Of a stretch of DNA of 64,000 nucleotides, positions 3,027 to 43,800 are shown piece after piece. A model generated the notes under the pieces. That model worked only from the letters and a program-made list of their open reading frames with translations. It did not search any database and was not told the origin of the DNA. Numbering within the stretch: position 1 is the first letter of the stretch; every line of letters starts with the position of its first letter. Origin of the DNA: Methanolobus chelungpuianus (GTDB lineage: Archaea > Halobacteriota > Methanosarcinia > Methanosarcinales > Methanosarcinaceae); the NCBI RefSeq assembly GCF_024500045.1, contig NZ_JTEO01000002.1, forward strand, positions 620,001 through 684,000. Reading direction: 5' to 3'. Position numbers and translations under genes: made by a program.

Positions 3027-3393
3027 TTAATGTATCCACTACCCATAAATGAAATGTATGTAGTTGGTTTGTAGTAATCTTATTTATCTTTTTGCAGCTT
3101 GTTCCATTTTTAATACCTGAAGCAGGTGTAACATCCTTTCTTAAGGATTTATATGCAACAGAGACAGATAGTTTCTTGCGAGAGGGAGTTGGGGTTATCA
3201 TTACGAGCGAAGAGCAGTGCAAATAGCTGCAGAAGCAGTTCATGCAGGGTCTGTATCCTTAATAGTCAACTTTCCACGATAAATTGCCACATCGCTCGTC
3301 TCTCTCGCAAATCAACGATCTGATGAATATTCCGTTCACATTTCCCATCTGCCGGGCTTGAGGCAGTTTACTCGGACATAGGTGGAGGAAAGC
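3027..3393. other. intergenic region with TATA box and structured element
   Basis: A gap of 367 bp with no convincing gene. It starts with the AT-rich promoter side of the radical SAM gene and contains the TATA-like TTTATAT at 3148-3154 on the plus strand and the paired segments described in the ncRNA entry that follows. The last 80 bp form the leader of the PRC-barrel gene. The minus-strand open stretches here overlap the radical SAM start and have no recognisable product. Confidence 0.6.
3176..3310 (+). ncRNA. putative structured small RNA, copy 1
   Basis: The ends are complementary: TTGCGAGAG at 3176-3184 pairs with CTCTCGCAA at 3302-3310. A second stem pairs ACGAGCGA (3203-3210) with TCGCTCGT (3292-3299). 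A small hairpin CTGC-AGAA-GCAG is at 3227-3238. The TATA-like box TTTATAT (3148-3154) is about 25 nt before the first stem, which is where an archaeal transcript would begin. The interior resembles the element at 43144-43260: both have TTCAT, then GGGTCTG, then CTTTCC, with TTCAT starting 46-53 nt before the closing stem. It could instead be the 5' leader of the PRC-barrel gene 84 bp downstream. Confidence 0.45.
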
Positions 3394-35046: not shown

Positions 35047-35256
35047 CTTCCCTCCTTTCCATCTTCCGTCCGATCCCATTCCTTTGATTTAGTAGCGTTA
35101 TGTATATATCTTGTTCCCTTTTTTCCATTATCGGGTCAGGTCAGACCTACCTGTATTTGCTATCTGCCAAATCACGGCAACTGATTGTGCTTACAATGGC
35201 AAATCAGATTTATTTGTTTAATCATTTCACCGATGGGCTCTATTTAAGGGCAAGTT

Positions 35257-35337
35257 TTAAATAGAAGTTGTTATAATAACGGCGTCAACCTGAGTAAAGT
35301 AATACTCGGGTATTAGTGGTATGGGGTCTATTTCCAT
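35257..35337 (-). CDS. possible 26-codon ORF with perfect Shine-Dalgarno
   Basis: The ORF starts MEIDPIPLIPEYYFTQVDAV. The full Shine-Dalgarno AGGAGGT (minus strand, 35345-35351) stands exactly seven bases before the ATG and overlaps the TAG stop of the upstream tiny ORF, the layout of a translationally coupled pair. No family is recognised. Its third positions look like coding sequence, but 26 codons are too few to be sure. Confidence 0.4.
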   Translation of the reverse strand: MEIDPIPLIPEYYFTQVDAVIITTSI

Positions 35338-35349
35338 CTAAACTACCTC

Positions 35350-35475
35350 CTAAATTATACCTCCACTAACCCCTCCACTAAGGGAGAGTTCCGCCGATGC
35401 GGGGCTCTCTTCTCCACACACTTGTTCCATTATCCTTATCGTTATCCTTTGTGTCATTGCTTGTTTCTTGTTCAT
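35350..35475 (-). CDS. possible 41-codon ORF upstream of the tiny coupled ORF
   Basis: The ORF opens MNKKQAMTQRITIRIMEQVC and continues with a Ser/Ala/Gly-rich stretch ending SGGVSGGII. An internal ATG gives a 26-residue version (MEQVCGEESPAS) with AAGGAT just before it. No clear ribosome site precedes the first ATG. Its stop codon lies in the Shine-Dalgarno of the next ORF. It may be a leader or coupled peptide; alternatively the plus-strand inverted repeats are the functional element. Confidence 0.3.
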   Translation of the reverse strand: MNKKQAMTQRITIRIMEQVCGEESPASAELSLSGGVSGGII

Positions 35476-40676: not shown

Positions 40677-43052
40677 ATGGCGTGCATGTCTATCGTCGTA
40701 TTCACGGAAAAGAACAAGGCAGCAGCGCAGATAGCCGGCATACTGAGCGAGGGGGGTTTCAGCCGGGCATCCATAGAAGGCGTTCCCGTGTACGACTTTA
40801 AGAAGGACGGCAAGGAATGGAGGATAATGGGCCTCTCCGGCCACATCATGGGATATGACTTCCCTCCGGAGCTCAACAACTGGCGTGGCTGCGACCCTTC
40901 AGTGCTGCTTGATACCCCTCCTGTCAAGACCGTCACAAAACAACCTTTCGCATCGGCCATCGCTTTGCTCTGTAGTGGCGCCGATCAGATAATCCTGGCA
41001 TGCGACTTTGACAGGGAGGGAGAGAACATTGGCTTTGAGGCCAAGTCCCTTGCCGAGAAAGTATCGAACTGCCCTATGAAAAGGGCGCGCTTCTCCACCC
41101 TCTCCCCCGGAGAGATCAAGCAGGCATTCAGCAATCTTGTGGAGCCGGATGTCAACCTGGCAATGTCTGCAGAGGCGCGCCAGATACTGGACCTGAAGAT
41201 GGGTGCGGCCTTTACACGCTTCCTGACCCTGGCGGTGCAGCAGAGGGCACGCACCAAGGAAATAATCTCCATCGGTCCCTGCCAGACACCCACATGCGGC
41301 TTTGTTTACGAGCGTGAGAAGCTCATCAGGGATTTCAAGTCCAAGGATTTCTGGAAGATAGAGGCCACTTTCAATCACTCTGGCATCGACTTTACAGGCA
41401 TGCACCGCAGCGGCCATATCCACGATAAGGCCAAGGCAGACGAGATATTCAGCCGCATTAAAGGTTCCAAGACCGGTATCCTTGTAAAGAAGAGTGTCAA
41501 GGAGTCCACGACAAGTCCTCCCTATCCGCTGAACACCACCGAGTTCCTGAAGCGCGCTTCCAAGTTCCTCGGGATAAGCCCTGAGAATGCCCTTGAGATT
41601 GCGGAGCAGCTCTACCTATCAGGTTTTACCAGCTATCCGAGGACCGAGACCAATAAGTATGCCGATGATTTTGATTTCCAGGCCAAAGTCTTAGGTTTTG
41701 CTTCGGGAGAGTACCGTGAGTATGCCCTGGCTATACTCTCAAAGCCGCCCGTCACCTGCAGGAACGGAACCCGCGACGGTCATGACCATCCGCCTATATA
41801 TCCGATCAAGGCTGCAACGAAGGCTGATATTGAGAAGAGCGTGAGGATACCGGATGCCTGGAAAGTATATGATCTGGTCGCCCGGCATTTCCTTGCTAAC
41901 CTGATGCAGCCTGCTGTGTTCGAGAAGACGCATCTTGAGATCGGAGTGAAAGAGGAGATATTCGATACCACGGGTTCTGTAATGAAGGACCCTGGCTGGC
42001 TGGCCGCATATCCTTTTGAGACCAAGAACGATAAGTTCCTTCCGGATATAGCCGTGAAGGAGGAAGTTGTTATAAAAAAGCTGAGCAACACCAAATCCCA
42101 GACGACCCCTCCCAAGAGACTGACCGAGGCCGAGCTGCTCACGCTGATGGATAAGAACGGTATCGGCACCAAGGCAACTGCTCCCAGTCATATCGAGACG
42201 AACAAGAAGCGCGGTTACTTTGAGACGAAGGGTAAGACGATTTCCATCCTTGACACCGGTTTCACCCTCATGGAAGCTCTTGACTCCAGCGTGCCCATAC
42301 TTGTGAAGCCTGCCGTCCGTTCCCGTATCGAGGCCCTTATCCAGGAAGTGGAGGACGGAAAAAAAGGCTTTGAGGATGCACTCGAGGAAGGTTCGGTGCT
42401 TATCCGGGACATGTATTCACACCTGATAACAAACAAGGACCAGATAGTCAGGAATATCGCAGGCACCATAACCGACGAGCAGATAGCAGCGGATAAGAAG
42501 AACTTCATAGGGCAGTGCCCCGAATGTGGCCGGATGCTGCGTATGGTCAAGACCGACAATGGCAGGTTCGTGGGCTGCAGCGGCTACTCTGATTGCAGGA
42601 AGACGTATCCTCTGCCAAAGGAAGGTGCTCTTACAGTAGCCAGGTCGAAGGAATGTAAAAACGCAGGTATAGCCGTGCTGAAAGTCGGCACCAAGTACTT
42701 CTGGTCCGTGGGCGTGGGTCCCTGCTTTAAGTGTGAGCACGAGAAGGAGTGCTTCCCGCCTGATGTGGTAGGCCCGTGCCCGAAGTGTGAAGGTTCGATG
42801 TTCATCCTTGAAATGAAGGAGAATCGTTTCCTTGCCTGTACCAGGAAGTGCGGGCATACGCAGTCTCTTCCCAAAGAGGGTAAACTGACAATAGCCGGTG
42901 AATGTGAACAGTGCGGCTGGAAGAGACTGAGCATAAAGGAGACCGGAAAGGATAAGAAGGGAAAAGCCGTGGCAAACCCGGAAAAGGAGGCGGGTGTGCG
43001 GGAGCTCTGCATCAACCTCCGATGCCCCTCCAGGACGGGCAGGAAAGCTTAA
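40677..43052 (+). CDS. topA: DNA topoisomerase I (type IA, archaeal)
   Basis: A 791-residue type IA topoisomerase that relaxes negative supercoils by nicking and passing one strand. The N-terminal Toprim domain has MACMSIVVFTEKNKAAAQIA and the acidic DFDREGENIG. The active-site tyrosine is in GFTSYPRTETNKY (Y320). The C terminus carries zinc-ribbon modules: CPECGRMLRM, CSGYSDCRKTY, and a later pair with CPKCEGSM and CEQCGWKR. The in-frame ATG at 40686 (MSIVVFTEK) is an alternative start. A TATA box is near 40580-40592, and the neighbouring frameshifted gene is divergent. Confidence 0.95.
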   Translation: MACMSIVVFTEKNKAAAQIAGILSEGGFSRASIEGVPVYDFKKDGKEWRIMGLSGHIMGYDFPPELNNWRGCDPSVLLDTPPVKTVTKQPFASAIALLCSGADQIILACDFDREGENIGFEAKSLAEKVSNCPMKRARFSTLSPGEIKQAFSNLVEPDVNLAMSAEARQILDLKMGAAFTRFLTLAVQQRARTKEIISIGPCQTPTCGFVYEREKLIRDFKSKDFWKIEATFNHSGIDFTGMHRSGHIHDKAKADEIFSRIKGSKTGILVKKSVKESTTSPPYPLNTTEFLKRASKFLGISPENALEIAEQLYLSGFTSYPRTETNKYADDFDFQAKVLGFASGEYREYALAILSKPPVTCRNGTRDGHDHPPIYPIKAATKADIEKSVRIPDAWKVYDLVARHFLANLMQPAVFEKTHLEIGVKEEIFDTTGSVMKDPGWLAAYPFETKNDKFLPDIAVKEEVVIKKLSNTKSQTTPPKRLTEAELLTLMDKNGIGTKATAPSHIETNKKRGYFETKGKTISILDTGFTLMEALDSSVPILVKPAVRSRIEALIQEVEDGKKGFEDALEEGSVLIRDMYSHLITNKDQIVRNIAGTITDEQIAADKKNFIGQCPECGRMLRMVKTDNGRFVGCSGYSDCRKTYPLPKEGALTVARSKECKNAGIAVLKVGTKYFWSVGVGPCFKCEHEKECFPPDVVGPCPKCEGSMFILEMKENRFLACTRKCGHTQSLPKEGKLTIAGECEQCGWKRLSIKETGKDKKGKAVANPEKEAGVRELCINLRCPSRTGRKA

Positions 43053-43143
43053 TCAAGCAAATTTGATTTACTCTTATATCAAACAATCTTGAATTACTCC
43101 AAATCTGACAAAAACTTATATATATGGAACACATTTTAGAACT

Positions 43144-43260
43144 TGGAGACGAAGAGCAATCCATAACTACACGATATACACAAATCGCAATCAATGACCT
43201 TCATCGGTTGGGTCTGCGAAAATCTACCTGCTTTCTCCACAACCATTACCTTCGTCTCCA
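43144..43260 (+). ncRNA. putative structured small RNA, copy 2
   Basis: Ends pair perfectly over 11 bp: TGGAGACGAAG (43144-43154) with CTTCGTCTCCA (43250-43260). TTATATATAT at 43116-43125 lies about 25 nt upstream, so a transcript should begin at the first stem. There is no plus-strand gene downstream to which it could be a leader; the next gene is convergent. Inside are CGAT/ATCG and GGTTG/CAACC pairings and the TTCAT-GGGTCTG-CTTTC pattern also seen in copy 1 at 3176-3310. Alternatives are a miniature inverted-repeat element, or a minus-strand 36-41 codon ORF (containing CDLCISC) that fills the same interval. Confidence 0.5.
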
Positions 43261-43275
43261 TACCTCCATAGCGCT

Positions 43276-43800
43276 TTACTTCCATGCTTCTGCATAACTT
43301 TCTTCATAGCATATATCCCTGAGCTCCTTTCTTGAAGACACGGCGTTCTTTTCCGCAGGATGTCCTATTGCCAGTACCGCCATAAGCTCCATGGACTCGG
43401 GACAACTCAGAATCAAGTTAACTTTATCTTTCTGGTTCAGGATTTCTCCCAGCCAGACCGCTCCGAGCCCCAGCTCGCAGCAGGCAAGCAGCATGTTCTG
43501 TATGGCAGCCCCAATGGCCTGCAGGTCCTTTGTCCTGTTGTACATAGCGGCCTGGTCAAGGTACACTGCTATTAGCAAGGGGGCATTGCTGACGATATTT
43601 CCATAATGGGTGCATTCGGCCAGCTTTTTCCTGGTATCCTTTTCCTGGATGACGATAAACCTCCATGGCTGGTTGTTGAGGCCTGAGGGTGCCCACCTGC
43701 CTGCGTCCAGGATAGTAGCGATCTCTTCCCTTGTGATCTTCCCTTGCGTGTATTCCCTTATGCTGCGTCTTGAAAGGATAGTATCTATAGTTCCTGACAT
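43276..43800 (-). CDS. nitroreductase family protein
   Basis: A 174-residue FMN-dependent oxidoreductase. Family features are SRRSIREYTQGKITREEIAT, GRWAPSGLNNQPWRFIVI, and the late GLGAVWLGEILNQ. The length is typical of the short nitroreductase subfamily. These proteins reduce nitro-compounds, quinones or other electron acceptors with NAD(P)H, usually without a known natural substrate. It is transcribed alone on the minus strand and is convergent with the putative RNA element. Confidence 0.9.
   Translation of the reverse strand: MSGTIDTILSRRSIREYTQGKITREEIATILDAGRWAPSGLNNQPWRFIVIQEKDTRKKLAECTHYGNIVSNAPLLIAVYLDQAAMYNRTKDLQAIGAAIQNMLLACCELGLGAVWLGEILNQKDKVNLILSCPESMELMAVLAIGHPAEKNAVSSRKELRDICYEESYAEAWK

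Follow-up and report, generated by a model that had tools for sequence, protein, structure and literature searches.

The window (the whole stretch of 64,000 nucleotides analysed here) belongs to an archaeal genome of 2.6 Mb, that of a Methanolobus; among named contigs, those nearest to its topA region come from Methanolobus sp. (family Methanosarcinaceae). On its plus strand, positions 40677-43052 are occupied by topA, whose product contains a Pfam topoisomerase and zinc ribbons. The minus strand harbors a gene of the nitroreductase family at 43276-43800. The element under study sits in the gap between these convergent genes. The original prediction stated that no plus-strand gene follows the element, which is correct, the nitroreductase gene converging on it. 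The following features were assigned:

43063-43098, plus strand: upstream conserved dyad, TTGATTTA..TATATCA..TTGAATTA in the window copy (conserved upstream sequences in orthologues of Methanolobus and Methanomethylovorans)
43110-43123, plus strand: putative BRE/TATA promoter, AAAAACTTATATAT, with the TATA box at 43116-43123 (from the sequence)
43144-43260, plus strand: body of the candidate small RNA (R1 covariance model match at 43146-43258, 69.8 bits, E 2e-13)
43144-43154, plus strand: 5′ arm of the closing stem P1 (covariation across orthologues)
43185-43219, plus strand: inner hairpin P2, weak in the window copy (TCGCA/TGCGA; per-sequence hairpin search)
43224-43240, plus strand: single-stranded anti-Shine-Dalgarno (anti-SD) region, decayed in the window copy (CUACCUGCUUUCUCCAC), ACUACCUCCAAUAUACCUCCAAU in many Methanolobus
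43250-43260, plus strand: 3′ arm of the closing stem P1 (covariation across orthologues)
43262-43267, plus strand: tail anti-SD motif ACCUCC (28 of 39 orthologues have CCTCC in the tail)

A closing stem of 11 bp had been predicted, and TGGAGACGAAG at 43144-43154 indeed pairs perfectly with CTTCGTCTCCA at 43250-43260 across a loop of 95 nt. Exact inverted repeats of this length with loops of 60-140 nt occur 1.1 times per dinucleotide-shuffled 64-kb window and at least once in 70% of the shuffles. Since such a repeat is expected about once per window by chance, the stem alone is not significant and gains its significance from the comparative evidence. The window element folds better than shuffled sequences (z -4.7). 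After anchoring of the arms in 39 distinct orthologues, pairing of P1 was observed in 93% of the cells, compared to 40-57% in slid controls, and nine of the 12 pairs revealed changes on both sides (43 cells versus 14.9 in shuffles). Examples of such arms are GAGACGAAG/CTTCGTCTC, GAGATGAAG/CTTCATCTC, GAGGCAAAGG/CCTTTGCCTC and GGGACGAATT/AATTCGTCCC. The sequence conservation of the arms exceeds what pairing alone would need, and this surplus could reflect a protein site.

Inside the loop, the hairpin P2 beat shuffled sequences at the 5% level in 23 of the 39 orthologues, to which the window copy does not belong. Its letters are unrelated between clades (GACCUAUUU/AAAUGGGUC, CAACCAAA/UUUGGUUG, AGCUUGAUU/AAUCAAGCU, UGCUUGA/UCAAGCA). 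By the per-sequence hairpin search, P2 was demonstrated neither in the window subclade, which has a weak candidate, nor in Methanomethylovorans.

The anti-SD of archaeal 16S rRNA, at its 3′ end, reads ACCUCC. In the element, this sequence is placed behind P2, often in doubled form (ACUACCUCCAAUAUACCUCCAAU); in most orthologues it is located outside P1 and P2 and is predicted to be accessible. CCTCC was detected in the loops of 35 of the 39 orthologues (6.7 expected), GGAGG in none of the 39. The loop motif of the window copy is damaged (ACCUGC) and its tail motif is intact; some copies retain just one clean anti-SD motif. T-tracts follow the 3′ tail motif in many species, and a CCUCC close to a T-tract may in part belong to a terminator. 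A genome-wide count of CTACCTCCWA showed no enrichment above the reversed control.

A TATA-like box ahead of the stem had also been predicted. The box itself is real (TTATATAT at 43116-43123); the ten-letter form in which it had been given (TTATATATAT) is slightly wrong, as GG comes next. It starts 32-37 nt ahead of the stem core in 37 of the 39 orthologues, and the remaining two are misassignments of the scan, CTAAATA being present there at the right distance. Homologues without a TATA box, which would have spoken against an RNA gene, were not encountered among the orthologues, in which the box is kept at a near-constant distance. In Methanolobus psychrophilus, the distance from promoter to transcription start is 19-22 nt (PMC5378194). 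Due to this value and the near-constant distance between TATA box and stem, the 5′ end of the RNA should fall at the stem. In the window, it would be at or just before 43144 and the 3′ end would be past 43267, as judged from the sequence.

Upstream of the promoter, a dyad of the form TAAATCA-N7-CTTGATTTA exists in most species and is kept in most Methanolobus and in Methanomethylovorans. The dyad (43063-43098 in the window) is a possible regulator site, i.e. a candidate activator or operator site. The form AAATCA-N8-TTGATTT recurs at the locus of the element in many Methanolobus genomes. As a regulon signal, the AAATCA/TTGATTT dyad was rejected, because there are a few copies per genome, with unrelated spacers; its conserved spacer recurs only in the copy at the element's locus, and a genome pattern search detected no regulon for it.

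The original prediction had proposed a search of related genomes, and this search placed orthologues at a single syntenic position across several genera. A DNA search identified close copies in the genomes G023, G021 and G015 and partial copies in G018 and G014. Within Methanolobus, the element occupies the same gap between topA and the nitroreductase gene at 26 of 26 loci, corresponding to the genomes in which the 3′ end of topA was found. It also exists in five related genera, giving 39 distinct sequences overall; among named relatives, Methanomethylovorans contigs and one contig labelled Methanococcoides carry it. A covariance model of 103 positions (R1) matched 25 Methanolobus genomes, missing L028, the most divergent copy. 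Its matches in nine genomes from other genera were weak (E values between 9e-5 and 0.05). Eight of these nine weak matches immediately adjoin the 3′ end of the nitroreductase gene and are confirmed by this position. In the other genera, the element lies by the nitroreductase gene even if topA is farther off or missing from the fetched stretch. Retrieval of nitroreductase regions added the genus g22 and more Methanomethylovorans-like genomes. Every matched genome contains one copy, and the R1 match is the sole one in the window. The element is absent at the nitroreductase locus from Methanosarcina-like genomes (g23) and, for g14-g17 and g20, from the genomes sampled, and R1 with strict filters gave no match in Methanosarcina genomes. 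No match at the Rfam gathering threshold was obtained anywhere in the window, the single sub-threshold match over the element being due to chance, and a plasmid collection yielded nothing.

It is extremely unlikely that the region encodes a small protein on one strand. Two open reading frames do exist in the window, one of 57 aa on the plus strand that begins at the TATA box and one of 49 aa on the minus strand, but frames are open through the element in only 14 (plus) and two (minus) of the 39 orthologues, and the element length changes in steps that are not divisible by three. Homologues conserving the minus-strand frame instead of the pairing would have contradicted the prediction; what is kept is the pairing. 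Coding on either strand was rejected, since the frames are not kept among the 39 orthologues. The inverted repeat and T-tract might also form a terminator or 3′-end processing signal common to topA and the nitroreductase gene, an idea that suits the location between convergent genes and the T-tracts behind the element in many species. We consider it unlikely, because the element possesses its own conserved TATA box at a fixed distance and a conserved loop of 70-95 nt, and stays by the nitroreductase gene in other genera where topA is farther off. Moreover, archaeal terminators are not known to need such a stem. A small RNA with its own promoter is supported by the conserved synteny, the compensatory changes, the fixed promoter distance, the lack of a kept frame and the lack of an Rfam match. 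The view that the element is a real, independent intergenic and previously unclassified archaeal small RNA is thus strongly supported by sequence comparison. Of the undescribed RNA family that had been suggested, this part stands, namely a small RNA with promoter and closing stem that is not in Rfam; its union with a second element at 3176-3310 does not. Although the two elements share several short words, and each has a TATA box and a long closing stem, two copies of one RNA family are very improbable here. The proposed alignment gave a score within that of shuffles (for the window copy, 38 of 300 shuffles equalled or exceeded it; for other orthologues, 69-291 of 300 did), and the covariance model of each element missed the other one. 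In neither element do the orthologues preserve the words of the supposed shared internal pattern (AGCA, TTCAT, GGGTCTG) as a set, and these words are best ascribed to chance. Furthermore, the element at 3 kb was detected in six Methanolobus genomes only, in contrast to the 26 Methanolobus genomes and other genera of the present one.

There remains the question of what the RNA does. Our preferred explanation, to which we assign a probability of roughly 0.6, is a stand-alone anti-SD small RNA acting in trans by masking ribosome-binding sites. An archaeal promoter of its own would drive plus-strand transcription of an RNA gene of approximately 120-140 nt. The transcript would be closed by a stem of 11-15 bp at its 5′ end and, in most species, carry a single inner hairpin. 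One or more copies of ACCUCC would be exposed between hairpin and closing stem, with the motif repeated in the tail. ACCUCC may then pair in trans with the SD (GGAGGU) of selected mRNAs, which would block 30S binding and repress translation. We infer transcription, RNA ends, mRNA pairing, repression and targets from the sequences. A doubtful but arguable alternative is that the RNA is real and structured, with ACCUCC binding a protein or the RNA serving as a scaffold or decoy, so that no mRNA is silenced by SD pairing. The near constancy of GAGACGAAG across genera, as expected of a protein-binding stem, and the copies with just one clean anti-SD motif would fit this explanation. On the other hand, the letters that are both conserved and unpaired match the 16S tail motif exactly, and the module containing them recurs in otherwise different candidate RNAs, which argues against this alternative.

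The region 3145-3330 (plus strand) is a separate conserved structured element with a TATA box and two nested stems, occurring in six Methanolobus genomes. Downstream of it, a PRC-barrel gene starts at about 3394, and a tetraether lipid synthase gene is divergent from it; in the six genomes, orthologues of 3176-3310 were always found between these two genes. Both of its stems are paired in 98% of the cells and are almost invariant, so covariation is uninformative there. This element probably represents either a leader or a small RNA and is unrelated to the present one.

When complements of the anti-SD motif that resemble an SD were searched for, further elements surfaced on the opposite strand. 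The present RNA shares a module consisting of UCUACCUCC-NN-CUCCACAA or ACUACCUCCAAUA-UACCUCCAA with two other candidate RNA scaffolds of the genus. Element (a), located in the window at approximately 35255-35420 (plus strand), is a candidate small RNA with a TATA box at 35255-35263, hairpins and repeated CUACCUCC motifs. It was found between a cation-efflux gene and an open reading frame in ten genomes on the window's side of Methanolobus. Element (b) is highly conserved at 14 or more Methanolobus loci (at the centre of each of L183, L185, L186, L189, L194, L195, L198, L199, L202, L203, L207, L210, L224, L233). Its closing stem compensates (AGGCUUUACAG/CUGUAAAGCC to GGCCUUGCAGG/CCUGCAGGCC), it contains a GCCAU/AUGGC hairpin, GCCAUCAAUUCUACCUCCAACUCCAC and UCUACCUCCAACUCCAC are almost invariant, and Rfam yielded no match to it. 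It is probably another small RNA, apparently lacking a clear TATA box. Alignments of the present RNA with (a) and (b) beat shuffles for most orthologues, a result that is biased since both elements were found via the motif. A structural model does not unite the three, and (a) and (b) may be paralogous or convergent to the present RNA. Element (c), short and found near position 1500 of L201, L211 and L212 on the strand opposite to the SD-like match, has a TATA-like sequence, a UACUACCUCCAA-type motif and a long T-tract, and is possibly a further small RNA. Near position 1500 of L230 and L239 (genomes G016 and G001), a conserved stretch resembling AAGACAAGUAAAUUGGACUACCUCCAAAGAU follows a TATA box and may likewise represent a small RNA or a leader with the same motif.

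The search for motif complements also matched the SD of a gene encoding an EamA permease, which is present in 24 of 27 genomes. Its flanking genes are, to judge from their sequence, probably those of the corrinoid protein and the trimethylamine methyltransferase of the mtt operon. The SD of this mttP-like gene is perfectly complementary to the genome's own RNA over 13 nt in seven Methanolobus genomes and over 9-11 nt in eight more. The remaining genomes including the window subclade reach 6-8 nt, and the window copy 7 nt. As a control, 64 SD-bearing start regions gave averages of 6.6-7.1 nt, one other gene also reaching 13 nt. Because of this control match, because such a genome has thousands of genes, and because ACCUCC in any RNA pairs with many SDs, the permease gene of the trimethylamine operon is a lead, i.e. 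a candidate target. Duplex energies between the RNA and the mttP-like start regions overlap with those of a control gene and were discarded as evidence. In some genomes, TTGGAGGTAG is located in the SD of the permease gene, in others near its coding end (L254, L258, L260, L265). In the window subclade, element (a) fits the mttP-like SD and varies with it (CUCCUA/UAGGAG in G000 and G023, CUCCAA/UUGGAG in G015). One may tentatively speculate that Methanolobus and its relatives possess RNAs of differing scaffolds with one module mimicking the 16S tail (GGGUC..AUC..CUACCUCC..CUCCAC), that these jointly control translation of genes for methylamine use such as mttP, and that the RNA at about 35255-35420 took over the pairing within the window subclade.

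A conserved mechanism is known for very few archaeal small RNAs. The present RNA is single copy, syntenic and endowed with a clear motif, and the genera carrying it include cultured methanogens. If the anti-SD reading holds, it would be a conserved archaeal model for SD masking. The possible link to methylamine uptake would concern a main route to methane in saline sediments.

Among known RNAs, sRNA154 of Methanosarcina mazei, a regulator of nitrogen fixation, masks the ribosome-binding site of glnA2 by a loop with an anti-ribosome-binding-site sequence (PMC5867862). Like the present candidate, for which masking by a loop sequence is proposed, it is an intergenic archaeal small RNA from the family Methanosarcinaceae. 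By description, it differs in having two stem loops, and the syntenic place in Methanosarcina is devoid of the present element. The mechanism of M. mazei sRNA41 is also similar to the one proposed here (PMC5867862), but, by description, this RNA targets acetyl-CoA decarbonylase/synthase mRNAs. The alpha-r14 and NfeR1 RNAs have variable stems and unpaired anti-SD motifs (CCUCCUCCC), which redundantly silence mRNAs (PMC10746234). What they have in common with the present RNA is the presence of several unpaired anti-SD motifs; what separates them is their alphaproteobacterial origin and a structure of three hairpins, each with CCUCCUCCC unpaired, as against the single closing stem, single hairpin and single-stranded repeat of the present RNA. 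The three CCUCCUCCC hairpins that define alpha-r14 were not found in the present RNA, whose motif ACCUCC is single or double. In M. psychrophilus, which belongs to the same genus as the window, 195 intergenic small RNAs have been mapped, nine of which are conserved and cold-induced with a "cold box" (PMC5378194). The upstream dyad described above is perhaps related to this box, and the present RNA may be one of the 195 and thus already have been seen as a transcript.
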